DNA from: Candidatus Leucobacter sulfamidivorax
GTDB taxonomy: Bacteria > Actinomycetota > Actinomycetes > Actinomycetales > Microbacteriaceae
Direction of reading: 5' to 3'
DNA: 64,000 bases
Assembly: GCA_016771945.1 (NCBI GenBank)
Contig: QZLF01000002.1
Coordinates: 558,001 to 622,000, forward strand
Shown piece after piece: positions 3,272 through 57,171 of the stretch. Position numbers and translations under genes: made by a program. The notes under the pieces were generated by a model. The model did not search any database, was not told the DNA's origin, and was given only the letters and a program-made list of their open reading frames with translations. The stretch's first letter is position 1, and each line of letters starts with the position of its first letter.

Positions 3272-4099
3272 GTGTCCCGCATCACCTCACGCCGCCGCGT
3301 CACCCGCATCACGGTCGGGGAGTCCCCGCGCCGCCTCTCCGACCTCCTCGCCGCCGAGGAGCCGCTCGAGATCCGCGTGCTCGGCCGCTCGCTCGCGGTG
3401 ACGATGCGCACCCCCGGCCACGACTTCGAGCTCGCCGCCGGCTTCCTCGTCTCCGAGGGGGTGATCCATCGCGGCGATCAGCTGATGACCGTCGCCTATT
3501 GCGCCGGGAACGACGGCGAGGGCGGGAACACCTACAACATCCTCGACGTGGTCCTGGCCCCGGGCGTCGATCCGCCCGACCCGAGCCTCGAGCGCAACTT
3601 CACTACGACCAGCTCCTGCGGGCTCTGCGGCAAGGCGAGCATCGACTCGGTGCGCACGCAGTCGCGCTTCACGGTGGCCGTGGATCCCCTGAAGCTGAGC
3701 CCCGAGGCGCTCACGGGCTTCCCCGAGCAGCTGCGGGCGGCCCAGGCGGTGTTCGACCGCACGGGCGGCCTGCACGCCGCCGCGCTCTTCGACGGCGCGA
3801 CCGGCGAGATGCTGGTGCTGCGCGAGGACGTGGGACGGCACAACGCGGTCGACAAGGTCGTGGGGTGGGCGCTGATGAACGGGCGGATCCCGGCCCGCGG
3901 CTGCGTGCTCATGGTCTCGGGTCGGGCGAGCTTCGAGCTCACGCAGAAGGCGCTCATGGCGGGGATCCCGATGCTCGCCGCGGTGTCCGCGCCGTCCTCG
4001 CTCGCGGCCGATCTCGCCGAGGAGGTCGGCATGACGCTCGTCGGCTTCCTGCGCGGGCCCTCGATGGTGGTCTACAGCCGGGCGGATCGCCTGGTGTGA
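3272..4099 (+). CDS. fdhD: Formate dehydrogenase sulfurtransferase FdhD
   Basis: FdhD transfers sulfur from a cysteine desulfurase to the bis-MGD cofactor of formate-dehydrogenase-type enzymes and is needed for their activity. The 275-residue protein shows the family pattern [16 protein letters not shown], the loop [12 protein letters not shown] carrying the sulfur-relay Cys pair, and [12 protein letters not shown]. The GTG at 3272 was chosen because it follows GAGGG and precedes [10 protein letters not shown], the usual basic N-terminus; the upstream continuation overlaps rsmA. The gene is convergent with the YdeP-like molybdoenzyme with a 3-bp gap, which is its likely client. Confidence 0.95.
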
Positions 4100-4102
4100 T
4101 CC

Positions 4103-6427
4103 TCAGACCACGACGGGGCGCCCCACGCCCACCGGCGTGCTCGACGGCTCGAGGCGGATCACGACGGCCTTCGACACCGGGGTGTTGCTCTCGAGGGCCG
4201 TGCTGTCGAGCGGCACGAGCACGTTCGCCTCGGGGAAGTAGGCCGCCGCGCAGCCGCGCGCCGTCGGGAAGGCGACCGCGCGGAAGCCGCGCAGCACCCG
4301 ATCGGGCTGGTCCTTCCACTCGCTGAAGATGTCGACCGTCTGGTCGTCCTCGATGCCGAGCTCCGCGAGATCGTCAGGGTGCACGAAGATCACCGAACGG
4401 CCCTTCTTGATGCCCCGGTAGCGGTCGTTCAGACTGTAGATCGTCGTGTTGAACTGGTCGTGCGAGCGGACGGTCTGCAGCAGCAGCCGCCCCGGCGGGC
4501 ACTCGACGTGCTCGAGCTCGTTGACCGTGATGCGGGCCTTGCCCGTCGCGGTGTCGAAGCGCCGCGCGTCGCGCGGACCGTTCGGCAGCACGAAGCCGTC
4601 GCGCCGCCGCGTCTTCTCGTTGTAGCCCGCGCACCCCGGCACGACCCGCGAGATGTGATCGCGGATCACGTCGTAGTCGTCGATCATGCCGAGCCAGTCG
4701 ATGCCGTGCCGGTCGCCGAGCACGGCGTGCGCCATGCCGGCCACGATCGCGGTCTCCGACCGCATCTGCGACGAGATCGGCTTGATCTGGCCGTGCGACG
4801 CGTGCACGGCGCAGACGGAGTCCTCCACCGTCACGTACTGCGGCCCCGAGGCCTGCATGTCGACCTCGGTGCGCCCGAGCACCGGCAGGATGAGCGCCTC
4901 CTCGCCGGTGATCACGTGCGAGCGGTTGAGCTTCGTCGACAGCTGCACGCTGAGCCGGGTCCTGCGCATCGCCGATTCCGCCAGATTCGTGTCGGAGATC
5001 GCGCCGAGCAGATTGCCGCCGAGGCCGACCCAGACCTTGATGCGCCCCTCGTCGAGCGCGCGGATGCCGTTCACCGCGTCGACGCCGTGGTCCCGCGGCG
5101 GCTCGAAACCGAACTCGCGCCCCAGCGCGTCGAGGAACGAGTCGGGCATCTGCTCCCACACGCCCATCGTGCGATCGCCCTGCACGTTGCTGTGCCCGCG
5201 CACCGGCGAGGCTCCCGCGCCCGGCTTACCGATGTTGCCGCGCAGCAGCAGGAGGTTGATGATCTCCCTGATCGTGTCGACCGCCTTGCGGTGCTGCGTG
5301 ATGCCCATCGCCCAGCAGATGATGGTGCGATCCGACGCGATGTAGCGCTCGGCCAGCTCGTCGATCTCGACCTCGGCGAGACCGGTCGCGAGCGCCACCT
5401 CGCGCTCGTCGAGCCGGTCCATGTGCGCCTCGAAGGCCTCGAAGCCGTCGCAGTACCGCTCGATGAAGTCGCGGTCGAGCACGGTGCCCGGCGCACGCCG
5501 TTCGGCGTCGAGCACGCGCTTCGACAGCGCCTGCAGCAGCGCCATGTCGCCGCCCGAGCGGATCTGCAGGAACTGATCCGCGATCTTGATCGCCTTGCCG
5601 AAGTAGCCGCGCACGCTCTGCGGATCCTTGTACCCGATGAGCCCCGCCTCGGGCAGCGGATTGACCGCGACGATGCGCGCCCCGTTCTCCTTCGCGTGCT
5701 GCAGCGCGGTCAGCATGCGCGGGTGGTTCGTGCCGGGATTCTGCCCCATGATGATGATCAGCTCCGCCTTGGCGAAGTCGTCGTAGGCGACGGTCGACTT
5801 GCCGATGCCGACCGTCTGCAGCATTGCCGTACCGGTGGACTCGTGGCACATGTTCGAGCAGTCGGGCAGATTGTTGGTGCCGAGCACCCGGGCGAAGAGC
5901 TGGTACAGGAACGCCGCCTCGTTGGAGGCGCGCCCGCTCGTGTAGAAGGCGGCCTCGTTCGGGTCGTCGAGCGCGTTCAGGTGCCTGGCGATGATCTGGA
6001 AGGCGCGGTCCCAGCCGACGGGCTCGTAGTGATCCGATCCCGCCGCCTTGTAGACGGGCTCGATGATCCGCCCCTGCATGCCGAGCCAGTACTCGGTCCG
6101 GTCCTCCAGCGAGCTGAGCGAGTGCTCCTCCCAGAACGAGCGCTCGACCTTCAGCGGCGTCGCCTCCCAGGTCACCGCCTTCGCGCCGTTCTCGCAGAAC
6201 TCGGCGACCTTGCGATGATCGGGATCGGGCCAGGCGCAGCTCATGCAGTCGAAGCCGTCCTTGTGGTTGATCTTCAGCATGAGGCGTGCGGTGCGTCCGA
6301 GGCCCATCTGCTTGATCGCGGGCTCCATCGAGTGCAGCACGCCGCCGAAGCCGGCAGCGAACTCCTTCGGCGGGGAGATCTCGATGTCGGCGTCGGAGAA
6401 GTCCTCGCCGGGTGCCTTCGGTGCCAT
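4103..6427 (-). CDS. FdhF/YdeP-family molybdopterin oxidoreductase
   Basis: Predicted bis-MGD oxidoreductase, 774 residues, of the YdeP/FdhF branch related to formate dehydrogenase alpha chains. The N-terminus has CMSC (residues 61-64) in place of the four-Cys 4Fe-4S motif of classical formate dehydrogenases, as in YdeP. A Cys-His pair (C194-H195 in SNMCHESTG) sits where the Mo-ligating Cys/Sec of FdhH lies. Cofactor-binding stretches include IIIMGQNPGTNHPRM and the C-terminal dinucleotide-binding domain. The physiological substrate of this branch is not settled; E. coli YdeP is linked to acid resistance. No signal peptide is seen, so it is cytosolic. Confidence 0.9.
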   Translation of the reverse strand: MAPKAPGEDFSDADIEISPPKEFAAGFGGVLHSMEPAIKQMGLGRTARLMLKINHKDGFDCMSCAWPDPDHRKVAEFCENGAKAVTWEATPLKVERSFWEEHSLSSLEDRTEYWLGMQGRIIEPVYKAAGSDHYEPVGWDRAFQIIARHLNALDDPNEAAFYTSGRASNEAAFLYQLFARVLGTNNLPDCSNMCHESTGTAMLQTVGIGKSTVAYDDFAKAELIIIMGQNPGTNHPRMLTALQHAKENGARIVAVNPLPEAGLIGYKDPQSVRGYFGKAIKIADQFLQIRSGGDMALLQALSKRVLDAERRAPGTVLDRDFIERYCDGFEAFEAHMDRLDEREVALATGLAEVEIDELAERYIASDRTIICWAMGITQHRKAVDTIREIINLLLLRGNIGKPGAGASPVRGHSNVQGDRTMGVWEQMPDSFLDALGREFGFEPPRDHGVDAVNGIRALDEGRIKVWVGLGGNLLGAISDTNLAESAMRRTRLSVQLSTKLNRSHVITGEEALILPVLGRTEVDMQASGPQYVTVEDSVCAVHASHGQIKPISSQMRSETAIVAGMAHAVLGDRHGIDWLGMIDDYDVIRDHISRVVPGCAGYNEKTRRRDGFVLPNGPRDARRFDTATGKARITVNELEHVECPPGRLLLQTVRSHDQFNTTIYSLNDRYRGIKKGRSVIFVHPDDLAELGIEDDQTVDIFSEWKDQPDRVLRGFRAVAFPTARGCAAAYFPEANVLVPLDSTALESNTPVSKAVVIRLEPSSTPVGVGRPVVV

Positions 6428-50494: not shown

Positions 50495-50830
50495 TCAGAG
50501 CCCGCTCAGCAGTCCCATGCATGGCCCGATCACCACGAGCCAACTCGCGGCCGCCGCGATGAGCATGCCGAGACCGATGCGGCGCGCCCGCTCGGAGAGC
50601 GCGACGAACACCCCGACGATCGCGGGGACCAGGAAGTAGAGGATCAGTCCGCCGAACCCTGCGAAGAGGCCCGCGCCGATCAGCGGCAGCATGAGCGCGC
50701 CGAACAGCACGTACGCGCCGCAGCCTATGCCGACGCCGCCCCAGATCGATCCGCCCGGGCGCGGGTCTCGGGGAGTGGGCGCGGTCTGCGGCGCGGCCGG
50801 TTCCTCGGGCGGAGGGGGTGCGTCGCTCAC
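50495..50830 (-). CDS. Small membrane protein, 111 aa, end of Tes-like operon
   Basis: Unknown protein with a Pro-rich cytosolic start (MSDAPPPPEEPAAPQTAPTP) followed by three hydrophobic segments (GVGIGCGAYVLFGALMLPLI; LFAGFGGLILYFLVPAIVGVF; GLGMLIAAAASWLVVIG). It lies 13 bp after the Pro/Gln-rich gene, so it belongs to the same operon. I do not recognise the family. Pro-rich N-termini on two neighbouring small membrane proteins suggest they may interact or be scaffolds. Confidence 0.7.
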   Translation of the reverse strand: MSDAPPPPEEPAAPQTAPTPRDPRPGGSIWGGVGIGCGAYVLFGALMLPLIGAGLFAGFGGLILYFLVPAIVGVFVALSERARRIGLGMLIAAAASWLVVIGPCMGLLSGL

Positions 50831-50843
50831 CGCTGCCCGCGTC

Positions 50844-51305
50844 CTACGAGAACGCGCCGATGCATGCGCCGAAGAGCACGATCACGCCGGCGGCGACGAG
50901 GAGGAAGAACCCCACTGCCACGCTGCCGAGGACGATGCCGACCTTCGCACCCGTGGGCAGGCCCTCCTTCTGCTGCGCGGGAGCCTGTTGCGGGTAAGGC
51001 GGTTGAAAGGAGGGGTACTGCGGAGGCGCCTGGTGGGCCGCATCGGGCTGCCAGCCGGCGTACGGCTGACCGGGGTTCGGCTGGCCTGGCTGCCACTCCG
51101 GCGGCTGCTGCGGCCAGGGTGCGGCCTGCTGAGGCTGCGGCCAGGGTGGTGCGGCCTGCTGCGGGGCCTGCGGCTCCTGCGGCTGCGGCGAGGCCTGCGG
51201 CTGCGGTGGGGCCTGCTGATCCTGCGGCTGCGCGGGCTGATCCTGCGGCCGCTCCGCGTCGGCCGGCCGTCCCTCGTTCGTCGGTTCAGGCGGGCTCTGG
51301 TTCAC
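50844..51305 (-). CDS. Pro/Gln-rich single-TM protein
   Basis: A 153-residue protein. About 110 residues are Pro, Gln, Ala and Trp-rich low-complexity sequence (QPQDQQAPPQPQASPQPQEP). Then comes one membrane helix (VGIVLGSVAVGFFLLVAAGVIVLFG) and a short tail, GACIGAFS. It overlaps the 3' end of the Lgt-like gene by 20 bp. The architecture is like the DUF4190/Pro-rich membrane anchors common in actinobacteria; function unknown. Confidence 0.7.
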   Translation of the reverse strand: MNQSPPEPTNEGRPADAERPQDQPAQPQDQQAPPQPQASPQPQEPQAPQQAAPPWPQPQQAAPWPQQPPEWQPGQPNPGQPYAGWQPDAAHQAPPQYPSFQPPYPQQAPAQQKEGLPTGAKVGIVLGSVAVGFFLLVAAGVIVLFGACIGAFS

Positions 51306-52092
51306 GATGCCTCCTTGCTCCGGTGGGTGTGAGCCTACCCTGCTTCGCGAGCCAGAGGATCCTGGCTGCGAACAGCGGGATCGTCGCGAGCAGGAAGAGC
51401 TGGGGGCGCGTGAGGCCCATCCAGGCGACCTCGTTGCCGCGTACGAACTCGACGAAGAAGCGGAACAGGGCGTACGCGCCGATGTACAGCGTCAGCGTCT
51501 CGCCGGCGCCGAGGCCGAGATGCCTGAGCCAGAACCAGAGCAGCGCGAAGGCGATCGCGTGGAACACGATCTCGTAGACGAAGCTCGGATGCAGGCCCAC
51601 GCCCGCGGGCGAGCCGAGGCGTGCGGCGGTCTCCTCGTCGAGCACGATGCCCCAGCCGCCGCCGGTCGGCGTGCCCGGGCGCTCGGTGAAGAGGCAGCCG
51701 AAGCGTCCGATGAACAGGGCGAGCGCCACGGCCGGCGCGAAGAGGTCGCCCGTGCGCTCCCGGTAGCCGACGATGCGCTTCGTGAGGTGCACCCCGAGCC
51801 AGGCGCCGACGAGCGCGCTGAGGATCGAGGCGTTGCCGCGCAGCATCTGCTCCGCGAAGCCGAGGTTCTGCGAGGGGTCGAGGTGCTGCACCCAGGTGCC
51901 GAGCCGGGCGAAGATCGCGGCGCCCACGAGCGCGCCGAGCACGAGCCAGGGGATGCGCGGATCCCTCACCCGGCGGCGGCGCGCCTCGATCCAGAACACG
52001 AGCCCGCCCGCCATCAGGCCCAGGGCGACGAAGACGCCGTGGGTGTCGAGCGCGGGGCCGAAGCCGAGCAGGTCGTCGAGGTGCGGGAACAT
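51286..52092 (-). CDS. Lgt-like membrane protein (prolipoprotein diacylglyceryl transferase family)
   Basis: A 268-residue, about seven-TM protein of the Lgt family. The signature region reads IGRFGCLFTERPGTPTGGGW, where canonical Lgt has a GRxGNFxNxE-type motif; the Asn is replaced by Cys and the Glu spacing differs, although the Arg is kept. HPSFVYEIVFHAIAF and FFVEFVRGNE match other conserved Lgt blocks. Lgt moves diacylglycerol from phosphatidylglycerol to lipoprotein Cys. The altered signature and the operon with a Tes-like radical SAM enzyme suggest a specialised lipid reaction rather than housekeeping Lgt; this is inference. Confidence 0.8.
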   Translation of the reverse strand: MFPHLDDLLGFGPALDTHGVFVALGLMAGGLVFWIEARRRRVRDPRIPWLVLGALVGAAIFARLGTWVQHLDPSQNLGFAEQMLRGNASILSALVGAWLGVHLTKRIVGYRERTGDLFAPAVALALFIGRFGCLFTERPGTPTGGGWGIVLDEETAARLGSPAGVGLHPSFVYEIVFHAIAFALLWFWLRHLGLGAGETLTLYIGAYALFRFFVEFVRGNEVAWMGLTRPQLFLLATIPLFAARILWLAKQGRLTPTGARRHREPEPA

Positions 52093-52095
52093 CGC

Positions 52096-52509
52096 TCAGC
52101 CGCCGAACACCCAGGGCCAGAGCACTCGGATCCAGAGCATCGCCCAGAGCGGGATCGCCGCCGCGGCCAGCACCGCCACGACCGAGAGGTAGGCGATCAC
52201 GAGGCGGGTGTCGCCGAGCCGGCACTTCGAGCGCATGAGCCCGGCCCGGCGCGCCCGCGCGTAGCCGGCGATCGCGATCACGGCGAAGCCGAGCAGCGCG
52301 ATCGGCCCGAGCACGCAGGCGATGAGCGCCACCGTGGTGTTCACGCAGAGGCGCAGCGGATCGAGACCGGTCGCCCCTGAGGCGTGCGGATCGGTCGGCG
52401 GTGGATCGCCGGCCGACGGATCGGCGGGCCGCGGATCCCCCACTCGCTCGTCCCGCTGCGCGAGCGCGGGCGTCGTCGGCGTCAGGTGCGACAGGGAATC
52501 GCCGGACAC
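52096..52509 (-). CDS. Two-TM protein between radical SAM and Lgt-like genes
   Basis: A 137-residue protein: a Pro/Asp-rich cytosolic start with short repeats (DPRPADPSAGDPPPTDPHAS), then two or three membrane segments (TVALIACVLGPIALLGFAVIAIAG; LVIAYLSVVAVLAAAAIPLWAMLW). It starts 4 bp after the radical SAM stop and ends 3 bp before the Lgt-like start, so it is tightly coupled. I do not recognise it. Relatives in this position would be a test of a conserved lipid-modification unit. Confidence 0.72.
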   Translation of the reverse strand: MSGDSLSHLTPTTPALAQRDERVGDPRPADPSAGDPPPTDPHASGATGLDPLRLCVNTTVALIACVLGPIALLGFAVIAIAGYARARRAGLMRSKCRLGDTRLVIAYLSVVAVLAAAAIPLWAMLWIRVLWPWVFGG

Positions 52510-52513
52510 AGTG

Positions 52514-54202
52514 TCACCGCCTCGACTTCACGGGGATCAGGCGGTCGGGATCGGGGGAGAGCGCGGCACCGTCCGGCTCGGGGGCGAAGGCCGGCGCCCC
52601 CGAGCCGCGCCTGCCGGCGAGGGCGGGCGATCCGGTCGCCGTCGAGAGCCGTCGCCGCGACAGCGGGGCCCAGGCCTGCACGGCGCAGAACGGCGCGCAC
52701 TGGTGCACGGCCTCTCCGGCGGGACCTGGAACCTCGTTCACGGTGGCGACGTGAACGCAGCACTGGGTGAGCCGTTCCTCGATCATCGTGTTGATGTCCA
52801 TGAAGGGCTTCACGGTGATGCGCTTGACGCGCTCTCCGAGGAATCGCCTGAGGCGCCCGTGCTGGCCCGGCAGCGCGGAGGCCGCGAGCTTCGTGAGCGT
52901 GCCGATGCCGAGGTCGCAGCCGACGCAGATGTCCTTCCAGAGCGATGCGATCGAGGGGTGGGAGAGCGAGGACTGCTCGCTGAGCAGGTCGAGCAGCGAT
53001 TGCTTCACGCTCTCCTTGAGCGCCCGATTGACACCGCTGTCGGCGATGCGGTTCGCGATGAGATCGGGGTTGAGGTCGAGGAACTCCTTCAGCTGCTCGT
53101 GCCCGACGAGCGAGGTGAGCGAGTTCCAGGCGCCGGAGTCGTCGCGCAGCAGGTAGCCGACCGAGCAGCAGTGCGGGTGCGAGCAGGGGAGGGCCGTGAG
53201 GTCGCGCCAGGTGACCTCGTCGTCCGTCTGCGGGCCCAGGCGGGCGAGGACCCCGGTGTGGGTGAGGCGATCCTGCGCATCGATGCCGGCCGAGCGCCCC
53301 GAGCCGAACACCGGCTGGATCGTCACCCCTCCCACGTAGGGGGTCTCCATCGCGCGGCGGATCACGTTGCCGATCTCGTGGTCGTTCACGCCGAGCGCGG
53401 CCGTCATCGTGAGGGTCGTGAACACGCCGGCCTCCGAGAGCCGCTCGAGCGCGCGCTGCTTGAAGCGGCGGATGTCGGCCCCGCGATGGTAGCGCGACGA
53501 TTCGGGCTCCTCGCCGTCGTACTGCAGGTAAATCTCGACGCGTTCCCGGTGCTTCTTCAGCACCTCGACGAAGGCGTCGTCGTTCGCGATCCTGAGCCCG
53601 TTCGAGTTGATCAGGATCCGCACGACCGGCCGCGCGACCAGGTGATCGAGCAACTGCTCGAGCCAGGGGTAGAGCGTCGGCTCGCCGCCCGACAGCATGA
53701 GCACGTCGATGCGGTTCCGTTCGCGCGAGAGACGGGCGTCGACCGAGGCGAGCACCTCCTCGAGGGGAGCGACGGCGCTCGCCGCCGGGCTCGACTCGGC
53801 GAAGCAGGTCGGGCAGCGGAGGTTGCAGTGGTCCGTGATGTCCTCGAGCAGGATGCAGGTGTGCTGCGTCTGCATCTCCGGCAGCCCGTCCTCGTAGGCC
53901 TCGGGCACCGGCTTGAAGTTGCCCGCGAGATCGGCGGTGTGGATCTTGGTCGGCGCGGTCCACTGCTCGAGATAGGTCAGGATCTCCGCCGACTCGTCGT
54001 AGAGGGTGCGCTGCAGGCCGTGCACGCGGCAGCCGCGCTCGAGCCAGATCACGCCGTCGCGATCCGCGAGCCAGCCCGAGAGCCGCTGCACCTCGGAGAG
54101 CGGGCGATCCGGATCCTCCTCGTGGCACTCCGGGCAGAAGGCGTTGACATAGCGGTGCACGCGGTAGTCGCGCAGCGGCATTCCGGCGGTCGGCGTTGAC
54201 AT
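52514..54202 (-). CDS. Radical SAM enzyme, tetraether synthase (Tes)/COG1964-like
   Basis: A 562-residue radical SAM protein. An N-terminal rubredoxin-like knuckle has C23xxC26 and C58xxH61. The SAM cluster is CNLRCPTC (C126, C130, C133) after HTCILLEDITD, followed by SGGEPT (171-176), LQYDG and GVNDHEIGNV, which match the archaeal Tes family pattern. Further Cys groups (C340/C345/C346, C426/C429, C481/C482, C502/C506) could bind auxiliary 4Fe-4S clusters. Archaeal Tes joins lipid tails by C-C bonds between unactivated carbons. A bacterial role in lipid or lipoprotein acyl-chain modification is inferred from its Lgt-like neighbour. It leads a five-gene operon. Confidence 0.85.
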   Translation of the reverse strand: MSTPTAGMPLRDYRVHRYVNAFCPECHEEDPDRPLSEVQRLSGWLADRDGVIWLERGCRVHGLQRTLYDESAEILTYLEQWTAPTKIHTADLAGNFKPVPEAYEDGLPEMQTQHTCILLEDITDHCNLRCPTCFAESSPAASAVAPLEEVLASVDARLSRERNRIDVLMLSGGEPTLYPWLEQLLDHLVARPVVRILINSNGLRIANDDAFVEVLKKHRERVEIYLQYDGEEPESSRYHRGADIRRFKQRALERLSEAGVFTTLTMTAALGVNDHEIGNVIRRAMETPYVGGVTIQPVFGSGRSAGIDAQDRLTHTGVLARLGPQTDDEVTWRDLTALPCSHPHCCSVGYLLRDDSGAWNSLTSLVGHEQLKEFLDLNPDLIANRIADSGVNRALKESVKQSLLDLLSEQSSLSHPSIASLWKDICVGCDLGIGTLTKLAASALPGQHGRLRRFLGERVKRITVKPFMDINTMIEERLTQCCVHVATVNEVPGPAGEAVHQCAPFCAVQAWAPLSRRRLSTATGSPALAGRRGSGAPAFAPEPDGAALSPDPDRLIPVKSRR

Positions 54203-54228
54203 GGGCCCAGCCTATTCCTGTTGCGGAC

Positions 54229-54744
54229 TCAGTCCTGCGCCTCCGGGCCGAAGCGGTCCACGCTGATCGCGAGCCGGCGCAGCAGCGTGGCGAGCCGCTC
54301 GCGCTCGGCGCGGGGGACGCCGCCCAGCAGGTGCTCCTCGGCGTCGGTGAGGCGGGTCATGGCCGCGTCGACGAGGGTCTGGCCCTGATCCGTCATCTCG
54401 ACCAGCACGCCGCGGCCGTCGTTCGGATCGGTCAGCCGGTGCACCAGCCCGCGCTCCTCCATGCGGTCGATCCGGTTCGTCATCGTGCCGCTCGAGACCA
54501 TGGTCTGCTTCACGAGCATCTTCGGACTCTGCCGGTAGGGGATGCCCGAGCGGCGCAGCACCGCGAGCACGTCGAACTCCCACGAGGCGAGCCCGCTGCG
54601 CGCGAAGGCCTGCGTGCGCACCCGATCCACATGCTTCGCGATGCGCGTCATGCGCGAGAAGACGGCCAGGGGCGCCAGGTCGAGATCGGGGCGCGCCGCC
54701 GCCCAGTCCTTGACGATCCGATCGACCTCGTCCTGCTCCCTCAT
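54229..54744 (-). CDS. MarR-family transcriptional regulator
   Basis: A 171-residue winged-helix regulator. SGLASWEFDVLAVLRRSGIP is the usual MarR helix pair, MLVKQTMVSSGTMTNRIDRM the recognition helix and GLVHRLTDPNDGRGVLVEMT the wing. ATG 54744 (MREQDEVDRIVKDWAAARP) is chosen by family alignment. It lies 26 bp upstream of the radical SAM start on the same strand and 41 bp after the MFS exporter, so it may govern either, and could form part of the drug-efflux locus. Confidence 0.88.
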   Translation of the reverse strand: MREQDEVDRIVKDWAAARPDLDLAPLAVFSRMTRIAKHVDRVRTQAFARSGLASWEFDVLAVLRRSGIPYRQSPKMLVKQTMVSSGTMTNRIDRMEERGLVHRLTDPNDGRGVLVEMTDQGQTLVDAAMTRLTDAEEHLLGGVPRAERERLATLLRRLAISVDRFGPEAQD

Positions 54745-54785
54745 CGCTCCATTATCCCGCAGCCGATGCCGTGGATGCCGGCGGG

Positions 54786-56288
54786 TCAGGGGCGCGTCGC
54801 AGGCGCCTGCTCCCGATCCGGCGCCTGCCTCTCCGGGCGCGAGCGCCGCAGGAACAGCACGCCGACCAGGCCGAGCAGGAGCACCCCTGCGGGCAGCAGC
54901 ACCGACTCCGCCATCGCCGTGGAGAAGGGGGCGACGATGGGCTCGGGCAGCTGCCCCGTGGAGAAGTCCCCGCCGCCGCCCGCGGCGCCCGGCAGATTGC
55001 TCTCGAGGCGGGCCTGCATGAACGCCGCGATCGCCGCGGAGCCGATCACCGAGCCCACGGTGCGGGTCGTGTTGTAGATGCCGGATCCGGCCCCGGCCTG
55101 CCGCGGTTCGAGGTTGAGCGTGGCGGTCGTGGCGAGCGGCCCCCACATGCCCGCGTTGCCGACGCCCATGAGGGCGGAGGGCAGCAGGTACATCCAGATC
55201 GGGGTGTCCGGGTTCATGAGCGAGGAGTACCAGAGCAGCGAGAGCGCGGTCAGGCCCAGGCCCGGGACGAGCAGGAAGCGGGCGTCCACACGGTCGAGCA
55301 GTCGCCCCGCGAACGGCGACAGCACGCCGGCCGCGATCGCCATGGGGACGAGCAGCAGCGCCGATTCGGTCGGGCTCAGACCGCGGGCGAGCTGCACGAA
55401 GAACATGAGCGGCAGCGACATGCTCGTCACCGCGAAGCCGACGGTGGCGATGCCGAGATTCGACAGCGAGAAGTTGCGGTCGCGGAAGAGGCCGAGCGGC
55501 ACGAGCGGCTCGCTCTTCGTCCTCGCCTGCTGCCAGATGAAGAGGCCGAGCACGACGACGCCGGCGATGATGAGGCCCCAGACCGAGAACGGACCCCAGA
55601 TCGTCCCCCAGTCGTGCTTCTCGCCCTCCTGCAGGCCGAAGACGATGAGGAAGAGCGCGAGGGCGCTCAGCAGCACGCCGCCGATGTCGAAGCGGTGCGG
55701 GTGGGTCGGGAGCTTCGGCACGAGGATCCAGGCGAGCACGAAGCCGATGACGCCGACCGGCACGTTGATGAAGAAGATCCACTCCCAGCCGAGACCGTCG
55801 ACGAGCAGGCCGCCGGCGAGCGGCCCGACGAGCAGGGCGACGCCGGAGGTCGCACCCCACAGGCCCATGGCCGCGCCGCGCTGCCGGGGCGGGAAGGTGC
55901 GCGTGATGACGGCCATCGTCTGCGGGGTGAGCATCGAGGCGCCGACGCCCTGCACCGCGCGCATCGCGATGAGCATCTCGAGCGAGCTCGCGAAGCCGCA
56001 GCCGATCGAGGCGACCGTGAAGACGGCGAGCCCGATCAGGTAGATGGTGCGGGGCCCGAAGCGGTCGCCGAGGCGGCCGGTGATGAGCAGCGGCACGGCG
56101 TAGGCGAGCAGATAGGCGCTCGTGACCCAGACGACGTTGTCGAGATTGTTGGTGTGCGGGTCGAGCGCGGCCTTGATGGCCGGGTTCGCGACCGACACGA
56201 TCGTCGTGTCGACGAGGATCATGAAGAAGCCGATGACCATGGCCCAGAGGGCGGGCCACGGGCTGCGGGGCTGATCGGACGCGTTCAC
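54786..56288 (-). CDS. DHA2-family MFS exporter (EmrB/QacA-type)
   Basis: A 500-residue drug:proton antiporter with 14 predicted TM segments. Motif A is GRLGDRFGPRTIYLIG, the DHA motif near TM1 is LVDTTIVSVANPAI (motif D1), and motif C is WGATSGVALLVGPLAGGLL. It should expel hydrophobic compounds. The GTG at 56288 overlaps the padR stop (GTGA), and it is co-transcribed with padR; an ORF extension upstream is a padR shadow. Confidence 0.9.
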   Translation of the reverse strand: MNASDQPRSPWPALWAMVIGFFMILVDTTIVSVANPAIKAALDPHTNNLDNVVWVTSAYLLAYAVPLLITGRLGDRFGPRTIYLIGLAVFTVASIGCGFASSLEMLIAMRAVQGVGASMLTPQTMAVITRTFPPRQRGAAMGLWGATSGVALLVGPLAGGLLVDGLGWEWIFFINVPVGVIGFVLAWILVPKLPTHPHRFDIGGVLLSALALFLIVFGLQEGEKHDWGTIWGPFSVWGLIIAGVVVLGLFIWQQARTKSEPLVPLGLFRDRNFSLSNLGIATVGFAVTSMSLPLMFFVQLARGLSPTESALLLVPMAIAAGVLSPFAGRLLDRVDARFLLVPGLGLTALSLLWYSSLMNPDTPIWMYLLPSALMGVGNAGMWGPLATTATLNLEPRQAGAGSGIYNTTRTVGSVIGSAAIAAFMQARLESNLPGAAGGGGDFSTGQLPEPIVAPFSTAMAESVLLPAGVLLLGLVGVLFLRRSRPERQAPDREQAPATRP

Positions 56289-56908
56289 TGCGGTGCTGCC
56301 TTTCCTCGGGCCTGGCATTCGTCGGAGTCGGGGGCGTCGTCCTCGCCCCAGGGGAGGTCGGGGGAGGAGATCCGGTCGAGCGTGCGGTCGAGCCAGCGCA
56401 GCTCGGCGTCCAGCATCTCGGCCTGGTGCAGGACCTCGATGAGGTACTGCTCGGGAACCCCGTCGCCGCGGGCCCGCTCGAGGCCGGTGCGGTACTCCTC
56501 GTGCTCGCCCGCGAGCAGTCCGCGGCGGATCGACAGCAGTTCGAGGACCTCGGCGCGGGGGAGATTGTGGGCCTCCACGAGGGCGAGGCGGAAGTGGCCG
56601 GCCGGCCTGAGGCGGGGCAGCTCTGCGCGAACCCACTCGGAGACGGCGCGATGCCCGCTCTCGAGGAGGGTGTAGCTCGTGCGCTCCGGGCGGTTGCCCT
56701 CGCGGTCGACCCCGACCTCGGCGATCAGCCGCTGCTGCTCGAGCCTGGCGACCGTGTGGTAGAGCGCGCCCTTCGTGACCCTGATGATCCGCTCGCGGCG
56801 GCGCTGCAGCAAGAGGCGCAGCATCTCGTACGGGTGCATGTCGCCCTCGCGCAGCAGCGCGAGCACCGTCACGCCGAGCGGCGTGAGCTTCGGGGATGAG
56901 GTCGCCAA
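56285..56908 (-). CDS. PadR-family transcriptional regulator
   Basis: A 207-residue PadR repressor: LTPLGVTVLALLREGDMHPYEM and the wing VTKGALYHTVARLEQQRLIAEV, then a helical C-terminal domain (subfamily 2 like). The only in-frame start before the fold is TTG at 56908. It overlaps the exporter gene. A TAGTCC-GAAT-GGACTA palindrome lies 20 bp upstream and fits autoregulation of the padR-MFS operon, induced by the substrates of the pump. Confidence 0.87.
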   Translation of the reverse strand: MATSSPKLTPLGVTVLALLREGDMHPYEMLRLLLQRRRERIIRVTKGALYHTVARLEQQRLIAEVGVDREGNRPERTSYTLLESGHRAVSEWVRAELPRLRPAGHFRLALVEAHNLPRAEVLELLSIRRGLLAGEHEEYRTGLERARGDGVPEQYLIEVLHQAEMLDAELRWLDRTLDRISSPDLPWGEDDAPDSDECQARGKAAPQ

Positions 56909-56927
56909 GGGAATGGTCCACTTCTAC

Positions 56928-56943
56928 TAGTCCGAATGGACTA
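56928..56943. promoter_or_regulatory. PadR operator
   Basis: TAGTCC-GAAT-GGACTA, a 6-4-6 inverted repeat, lies 20 bp upstream of the padR TTG start within an AT-rich pocket, consistent with overlap of the promoter. It is the typical location for a PadR autoregulatory site. Confidence 0.7.
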
Positions 56944-56984
56944 TAGCACTCATGCGGGGCCCCGTCATCCGGCCGCCGACCGCG

Positions 56985-57042
56985 CCGAAAGAAGGAGAAC
57001 ACACGTTCTCCCGCGGCGAAACCTGCGTTCTCCTTCTCTCGG
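56985..57042. repeat. 16-bp inverted repeat in the padR-tRNA gap
   Basis: CCGAAAGAAGGAGAAC at 56985-57000 pairs with GTTCTCCTTCTCTCGG at 57027-57042 with one mismatch, and an inner GTTCTCC (57005-57011) can also pair with GGAGAAC, giving two competing folds. It occupies the 263-bp gap between padR and tRNA-Gln. No credible gene is present in the gap. It could be an attenuator-like switch or a decayed element. Confidence 0.6.
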
Positions 57043-57171
57043 CGTGCTTCTTGGAGCTGCGGCACTTCGAAAGTGCCGGCGCCTCGACGGCTCTGGGAAG
57101 CGGGGATCCCGCGGGCGCTCGGCGCGACTCGGGCTCCCACTAAACTGGGATCTTGGCTGCGCCGCGGCCGA

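Follow-up and report, generated by a model that had tools for sequence, protein, structure and literature searches.

A Tes-fold radical SAM enzyme and an Lgt paralogue found together with small membrane proteins ending in a G-x-C motif in Actinomycetota and Bacteroidota

Introduction

What would a radical S-adenosylmethionine (SAM) enzyme resembling the archaeal tetraether lipid synthase Tes be doing in an actinobacterium, in one operon with an Lgt-like protein and three small membrane proteins? The question is raised by a locus of Candidatus Leucobacter sulfamidivorax, within a stretch of 64,000 nucleotides (positions 558,001 to 622,000 of contig QZLF01000002.1, assembly GCA_016771945.1) that is here called the window. 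An earlier note on this DNA had proposed a bacterial system that modifies the acyl chains of lipids or lipoproteins and possibly makes membrane-spanning or cross-linked lipids. In one form of this proposal the radical SAM enzyme (rSAM) would couple the ends of acyl chains to give membrane-spanning lipids, with the Lgt-like protein acting on the head group and the small proteins being helpers only. Comparison with other genomes shows that the Lgt paralogue, called LgtL here, and the Tes-fold rSAM are encoded together in members of two phyla, usually with one or two small membrane proteins in which a hydrophobic helix is followed by G-x-C-x(3-13)-COOH. The reading that is preferred, and to which we give a probability of about 0.5, is that these genes are a self-contained protein-lipidation cassette, in which LgtL would lipidate the cysteine (Cys) of the tail and rSAM would modify the same lipid or peptide.

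Organization of the operon

All five genes are on the reverse strand, running from 54202 to 50495; neighbouring genes are 4, 3 and 13 bp apart, apart from one pair that overlaps by 20 bp. The operon is real, and its place and tight packing are as had been described; all of the motifs previously quoted for rSAM (CxxC...CxxH, CNLRCPTC, SGGEPT, LQYDG, GVNDHEIG and the C-terminal Cys) were also found. The three small proteins gave nothing above any NCBIfam or Pfam cut-off. The genes, and the motifs within them that are discussed below, are as follows.

52514..54202, reverse strand: rSAM, Tes fold, 562 amino acids (sequence, family matches, AlphaFold2 model, Foldseek)
52096..52509, reverse strand: small membrane protein of 137 amino acids with invariant DPLRLC and S[KR]C-x-L, an actinobacterial partner gene (alignment A9, 10 rows)
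51286..52092, reverse strand: Lgt paralogue LgtL, 268 amino acids (PF01790, 5azb profile match, Foldseek)
50844..51305, reverse strand: Pro/Gln-rich protein of 153 amino acids, one C-terminal hydrophobic segment, tail G-A-C-IGAFS, candidate substrate
50495..50830, reverse strand: protein of 111 amino acids, Pro-rich N-terminus, three hydrophobic segments, tail G-P-C-MGLLSGL, candidate substrate
53804..53827, reverse strand: CNLRCPTC radical SAM cluster motif of rSAM (residues 126-133; C126, C130, C133)
54020..54136, reverse strand: rubredoxin-like knuckle C23xxC26...C58xxH61 of rSAM (Zn_ribbon_HMPTM above cut-off)
51694..51708, reverse strand: altered Lgt signature G129-R-F-G-C133 of LgtL (GR143LGN146 in E. 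coli; alignment to 5azb)
50862..50870, reverse strand: G-A-C tail motif of the 153 amino acid protein (sequence)
50519..50527, reverse strand: G-P-C tail motif of the 111 amino acid protein (alignment A8: no variation at G102 or C104 in its 12 rows)

Conservation of the cassette in two phyla

Within the genus, the rSAM gene is present in 10 of 54 genomes, nine of which have LgtL-type matches, while the tenth carries only a fragment of rSAM at a contig end. The rSAM clade was found in 14 of 248 genomes sampled from the order and 24 of 394 from the class, and in a sample of the phylum there are rSAM matches in 23 of 396 genomes, a count that includes distant homologues. LgtL is in the same cluster as rSAM in 19 of the first 20 actinobacterial loci from the wide search, the exception being a contig of 3.7 kb. 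Gene order varies among the actinobacterial cassettes. Copies are present on plasmid pS2b of Mycobacterium avium and plasmid pJCM12687 of M. branderi, and also in Nonomuraea gerenzanensis, on an 11.9-Mb record filed as a plasmid. The partner of 137 amino acids belongs to most, not all, of the actinobacterial modules (15 of 19 test loci by tblastn), and it had no match at E 1e-3 in the 80 Bacteroidota loci described below. In one genome of the genus (G017, L030:9485-10290), lgtL is split over two frames, as is a relative of the tail protein, which might reflect decay of the cassette or a sequencing error.

The cassette is also found in the Bacteroidota. On a plasmid of Persicobacter, a distant rSAM gene overlaps an Lgt-like gene, and a scan of genome contigs with the Persicobacter rSAM identified 513 stretches encoding relatives, from which it may be that the cassette is common; the best 80 of the 513 were analysed. 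From their names we take these 80 to be Bacteroidota (for example Flavobacterium, Tenacibaculum, Riemerella, Aequorivita, Winogradskyella, Fulvivirga and Saprospiraceae). Of the 80 loci, 79 contain lgtL, either as a gene or in pieces, the exception being a contig that begins 72 bp before the rSAM gene. This lgtL often overlaps the start of the rSAM gene by 11 bp, and a few loci (L118, L142, L145, L173) have other genes between the two. In the Hyunsoonleella ulvae locus (L145:16-4250) an lgtL-like sequence at 16-483 begins near the start of the stretch and further short pieces are at 3956-4250, away from rSAM, suggesting duplication or rearrangement.

Comparison by eye, gene by gene, of nine Bacteroidota loci showed that their flanking genes differ, so that the cassette seems to be self-contained. 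The distances between rSAM sequences correlate with those between LgtL sequences (r = 0.977 for 34 loci, 0.836 for 17 actinobacterial loci and 0.622 for 17 Bacteroidota loci), with 0 of 2000 permutations as high, although because the permutation ignores shared ancestry this shows co-inheritance more than coupling. rSAM and LgtL are a conserved unit across Actinomycetota and in Bacteroidota, and the conserved neighbourhood on which the earlier note had staked its interpretation does therefore exist.

No Lgt gene of either type was found near 12 distant actinobacterial rSAM homologues, in loci of 3.7-15 kb and with nine other Lgts among the queries. On three haloarchaeal plasmids (L187:1426-3704, L188:1486-3649, L189:1474-3584) and a Mycolicibacterium vanbaalenii plasmid (L077:5902-8270), a related rSAM gene is directly followed by a methyltransferase gene, with no Lgt gene in the stretches examined. 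In this enzyme family, the rSAM-methyltransferase arrangement is thus another pairing that recurs, besides the one with LgtL.

Upstream of the operon in the window, on the same strand, 54212-57140 encodes what by eye, from the translation, are a MarR-like regulator and a transporter of the major facilitator superfamily type. A defence system was considered for the locus and rejected; the PADLOC matches are partial ones to pVip (viperin) only, through the shared radical SAM core.

The C-terminal tails of the small membrane proteins

The small proteins had been described as having Pro-rich tails. The Pro-rich stretches are in fact N-terminal, and it is the C-termini that are conserved, with a G-x-C motif, of which the earlier note made no mention, closing the last helix a few residues from the C-terminus in two of the three small proteins (GPCMGLLSGL and GACIGAFS). 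Helix numbers here are counts of hydrophobic segments and not the output of a topology program. In the Bacteroidota, one or two proteins of about 50-80 amino acids with hydrophobic segments are encoded directly after rSAM, and in all 80 loci at least one small protein ends in G-x-C plus 3-11 residues, the consensus near the C-terminus being [IV]-[GS]-L-G-[IV]-C-G. The tail is present in 106 of the 116 small hydrophobic open reading frames (ORFs) in this slot, compared with 6 of 325 such ORFs in other parts of these loci, a control that counts ORFs in all frames, many of which are not genes.

The actinobacterial tail proteins are longer, often have a Pro-rich N-terminus and mostly have three hydrophobic segments. 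With the truncated contigs L046 and L086 excluded, 28 of 30 actinobacterial loci have the tail under a looser filter ([GA] or [GAS] at -2, at most 24 residues after the Cys), and there is a Gly at -2 in all 30 tabulated tails. In 19 loci that were fetched by a class-wide search after the motif had been defined, LgtL is present in 19 of 19, as is the tail under a strict filter (G-x-C, 2-14 residues after the Cys), with no tail matches in the rest of their sequence (270.9 kb, each strand counted). The test is not fully independent, since the 19 loci and those analysed before are related. Beyond the motif there is only a faint likeness between the tail proteins of the two phyla (best blastp E 0.001, two small sets), which may or may not share a distant ancestor. 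A search of the host genome with the profile of alignment A8 gave, apart from the gene in the window, four weaker matches; three are inside longer ORFs of a different nature, and the remaining one is at E 4.7. The fact that the small proteins carry this conserved C-terminal motif suggests that the acceptor of the lipid would be a protein rather than free membrane lipids.

There are two or more tail ORFs in tandem in 26 of the 80 Bacteroidota loci, and the N-terminal parts of the proteins are variable while the tail is constant. Both features could also indicate a lipopeptide made in the manner of a ribosomally synthesized and post-translationally modified peptide (RiPP), where the tail would be the core peptide, modified by LgtL and rSAM and freed by a protease encoded elsewhere as a short lipidated signal or inhibitor. 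The presence of the cassette on the two Mycobacterium plasmids and its patchy actinobacterial distribution fit with this, as does the existence of lipidated RiPPs, since the DAG-RiPPs (dyb, ned) are reported to combine an iron-dependent modifying enzyme with diacylglyceryl lipidation (PMC12636315). However, no common protease, exporter or immunity gene was seen in the nine Bacteroidota loci, by eye and with no family search, and the tail is almost wholly hydrophobic, such that it seems to be part of the membrane helix. A RiPP-like product is considered unlikely.

Lysine or arginine (K/R) is present upstream of the last hydrophobic segment in 106 of 106 Bacteroidota and 30 of 30 actinobacterial tails, and basic residues are present in or after that segment in only 11 of 106 (K/R) and 1 of 30 (with His counted too). 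Under the positive-inside rule basic residues mark the cytoplasmic side, which would place the tail Cys at the outer face. This is the same basic-helix-Cys geometry as in a lipoprotein signal peptide, here placed C-terminally. A classical lipoprotein substrate has an N-terminal signal peptide and lipobox with a small residue at -1, whereas here the Cys is near the C-terminus. At -1, only 3 of 106 Bacteroidota tails have a small residue (G, A or S), and 9 of 30 actinobacterial tails have Ala; as the residue is so rarely small in the Bacteroidota, cleavage by signal peptidase II would be unlikely in that group, while in the Actinobacteria it may or may not take place.

A C-terminal Cys beside a membrane helix is also seen in MYXO-CTERM and similar sorting signals, where an Lgt-like enzyme has been proposed to lipidate the C-terminal Cys (PMC11980579). 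The order described there is Cys, helix and Arg cluster, removed by myxosortase, whereas that of the window tails is reversed, with a basic loop, a helix and the Cys at the very end of a small protein.

The Lgt paralogue

LgtL matches PF01790 (LGT) at 90 bits (cut-off 24.9), and its profile aligns to the E. coli prolipoprotein diacylglyceryl transferase Lgt (5azb) at E 1.7e-17. For its AlphaFold model, with a predicted local distance difference test (pLDDT) score of 84.3, 5azb is the sole PDB match at E <= 0.001 in Foldseek (E 1.1e-6, template modelling (TM) scores 0.66/0.63). LgtL is below the cut-off of the NCBIfam lgt equivalogs, the best two of which score 58.1 bits (cut-off 334) and 50.4 bits (cut-off 118.9). 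The counterparts of E. coli Arg143, Arg239, Glu202 and Glu243 are kept, and the two Arg, R130 and R211 in LgtL, are invariant in 32 LgtL rows. These Arg are reported to be essential in E. coli Lgt, in which Y26A, Y26F and Y26Q are inactive (PMC4728403). At Tyr26 and Asn146, on the other hand, LgtL has H18 and C133, both of which are likewise invariant in the 32 rows. The protein had been called an altered Lgt paralogue, and the fold, together with these two replacements, bears this out. A further difference from Lgt is that lgtL adjoins genes for proteins with a C-terminal, rather than an N-terminal, lipobox-like Cys.

The host genome has one further Lgt, on contig C4, which is ordinary-looking and has 31% identity over the matched part. 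In a tree, 35 LgtL rows from both phyla are on one side of a branch with 100/100 support, separated from nine other Lgts. GRIGC is found in two of these nine by a simple GR.G. pattern, which hits a wrong place in the host's own Lgt, so that LgtL may not be alone in having a Cys in the signature.

The radical SAM enzyme

In a family search the window rSAM matches Radical_SAM at 70.6 bits and Zn_ribbon_HMPTM at 35.6 bits (cut-off 27). Among PDB sequences only that of Tes 7tol (E 1.2e-32) matches it at E <= 0.01, and for the AlphaFold2 model (pLDDT 81.1) the best Foldseek match is Tes 7tom, along its length (E 1.7e-29, TM 0.66/0.74), with 7tom and 7tol far above the next protein (E 3.2e-8). With Tes (MJ0619, GDGT-MAS), which forms C-C bonds between lipid tails, it shares the fold, the N-terminal rubredoxin knuckle (C9xxC12...C33xxH36 in Tes), the CX3CX2C core and a C-terminal cluster domain with CCxH. 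The core-cluster Cys and the three knuckle Cys are invariant in 26 actinobacterial and 80 Bacteroidota rows, and His61 is invariant in alignments A1 and A7.

The NCBIfam score for Tes (NF045702) is 146.9 bits, below the cut-off of 450, and that for the radical SAM (seleno)protein TrsS (NF045646), 181.9 bits, is higher and also below its cut-off of 490. TrsS is the best NCBIfam score for the Bacteroidota rSAM as well (327.6 of 490 bits, below cut-off). The partner genes known for TrsS are unlike those of the window rSAM, and Tes loci are not known to have partner genes of the LgtL or tail type.

In the Tes numbering of PMC9433317, the [4Fe-4S]N ligands C73, C77 and C80 are V99, D105 and P108 in the window rSAM, and these Cys are present in 0 of 26 actinobacterial rows, compared with 80 of 80 Bacteroidota rows. 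The position of Cys438 is Val or Ile in all 106 rows (Val in the window), while Met439 and Tyr459 are replaced by K465 and V485, both invariant in the 18 rows of A1. That paper describes the ligands of the Tes cofactors and gives Met439, which is labile, and Tyr459 as fully conserved in 1000 archaeal homologues. The window rSAM has nine C-terminal Cys (340, 345, 346, 426, 429, 481, 482, 502, 506), including Cys502, which is extra compared with Tes. All of these except 346 are invariant in the actinobacterial group, and of these eight positions only four carry a Cys in the Bacteroidota group. As the [4Fe-4S]N Cys, Cys438, Met439 and Tyr459 are not kept, the window rSAM is not assigned to Tes; judging from the alignments, neither group has the Tes C-terminal cluster environment. 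The auxiliary Cys differ between the two groups, whose reactions and chemistry may therefore not be the same.

In a tree of 54 rows, which included 16 of the 80 Bacteroidota rows, the actinobacterial and Bacteroidota groups each have 100% bootstrap support. They are sisters with moderate support (90/70) and long branches, apart from Tes, the haloarchaeal sequences and the other homologues. The description of rSAM as Tes-like thus stands for the fold, the knuckle and the core cluster, and it is not supported for the [4Fe-4S]N Cys, Cys438, Met439 and Tyr459 or for membership of the family, the enzyme lying apart from Tes in the tree.

These results bear on the proposal that the product is a membrane-spanning lipid. 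Tes is by far the best fold match of rSAM, and the nearest lipid work concerns Tes and the membrane-spanning lipid synthase Mss, with bacterial Tes homologues and Mss proposed or reported as makers of such lipids (PMC8941075, PMC11868695, PMC13274423). However, the actinobacterial rSAM has the replacements and the missing cluster described above, the Bacteroidota rSAM has lost other C-terminal cluster Cys, and the conserved protein tail would be left unexplained. Membrane-spanning or cross-linked lipids are possible without being specifically supported, and a coupling of acyl-chain ends by rSAM, with the small proteins as helpers only, seems improbable.

TGA codons within some of the rSAM matches were considered as selenocysteine codons. 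This was rejected in favour of their being the gene end; the ORFs with the conserved part stop there.

Proposed function of the cassette

The reading of the locus as a protein-lipidation cassette would involve the following. LgtL would move diacylglyceryl from phosphatidylglycerol, or from a modified donor, to the tail Cys as a thioether, and without cleavage by signal peptidase II the tail protein would keep both its helix and the lipid. The rSAM would act by radical chemistry on this same product, either on its acyl chains or on the residues of its tail. Action on acyl chains is suggested by the fact that the active site of its fold relative Tes is reported to hold lipid tails (PMC9433317). 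Lipidation of the tail Cys by LgtL is held to be the most likely of these events, and the rSAM step is proposed less surely. Each chemical step is inferred, from cassette membership, folds, conserved residues and the motif and its position, which were observed.

Several points weigh against this reading. Both the lipidation of the tail Cys and its very role as a substrate are deduced from conservation, and the Gly of the motif is at -2, not at -1 as in the classical lipobox. The tail is missing from 10 of the 116 slot ORFs. LgtL has a His at a position where the reported replacements of Tyr26 inactivate E. coli Lgt (PMC4728403). The two rSAM groups differ in their auxiliary Cys and are joined by long branches, and the distance correlation takes no account of shared ancestry. 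Furthermore, two loci from more distant actinobacteria (L082:3806-6445, L083:6161-9007) have LgtL, rSAM and the partner of 137 amino acids, with no tail protein in the stretch read; the substrate may be encoded elsewhere.

These two loci could also mean that the small proteins are membrane subunits or recruiters, with a structural or redox-active tail Cys, and that LgtL and rSAM act on another molecule. The 137 amino acid partner, which has two invariant Cys of its own and no G-x-C tail, would be consistent with this. The tandem copies of the tail ORFs and the variability outside the tail fit substrates better, and a purely auxiliary role for the small proteins is thought rather unlikely. Were the tail proteins lipidated as proposed, it is conceivable, if doubtful, that they are C-terminally lipidated membrane mini-proteins and that rSAM covalently alters their diacylglyceryl chains, for instance by joining the chain ends or by linking the chains across the bilayer to another lipid, so that the lipoproteins would span the membrane or be tethered.

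The cassette was not found described in a literature search from which subscription literature was largely out of reach, so that novelty in print is unproven. The data suggest that lipid is attached to, or altered on, the C-terminus of membrane proteins in an undescribed way.

In bacteria, lipoproteins receive their lipid at the N-terminus, after a signal peptide. If the proposed reading is true, a dedicated Lgt paralogue for a C-terminal Cys, together with a Tes-fold rSAM, would be a second, undescribed route of lipidation. The idea has a place to land, as an Lgt-like enzyme has already been proposed for other C-terminal Cys signals (PMC11980579). The cassette would also give a concrete, testable function to part of an rSAM family to which, in bacteria, the making of membrane-spanning lipids has been ascribed as a proposal.

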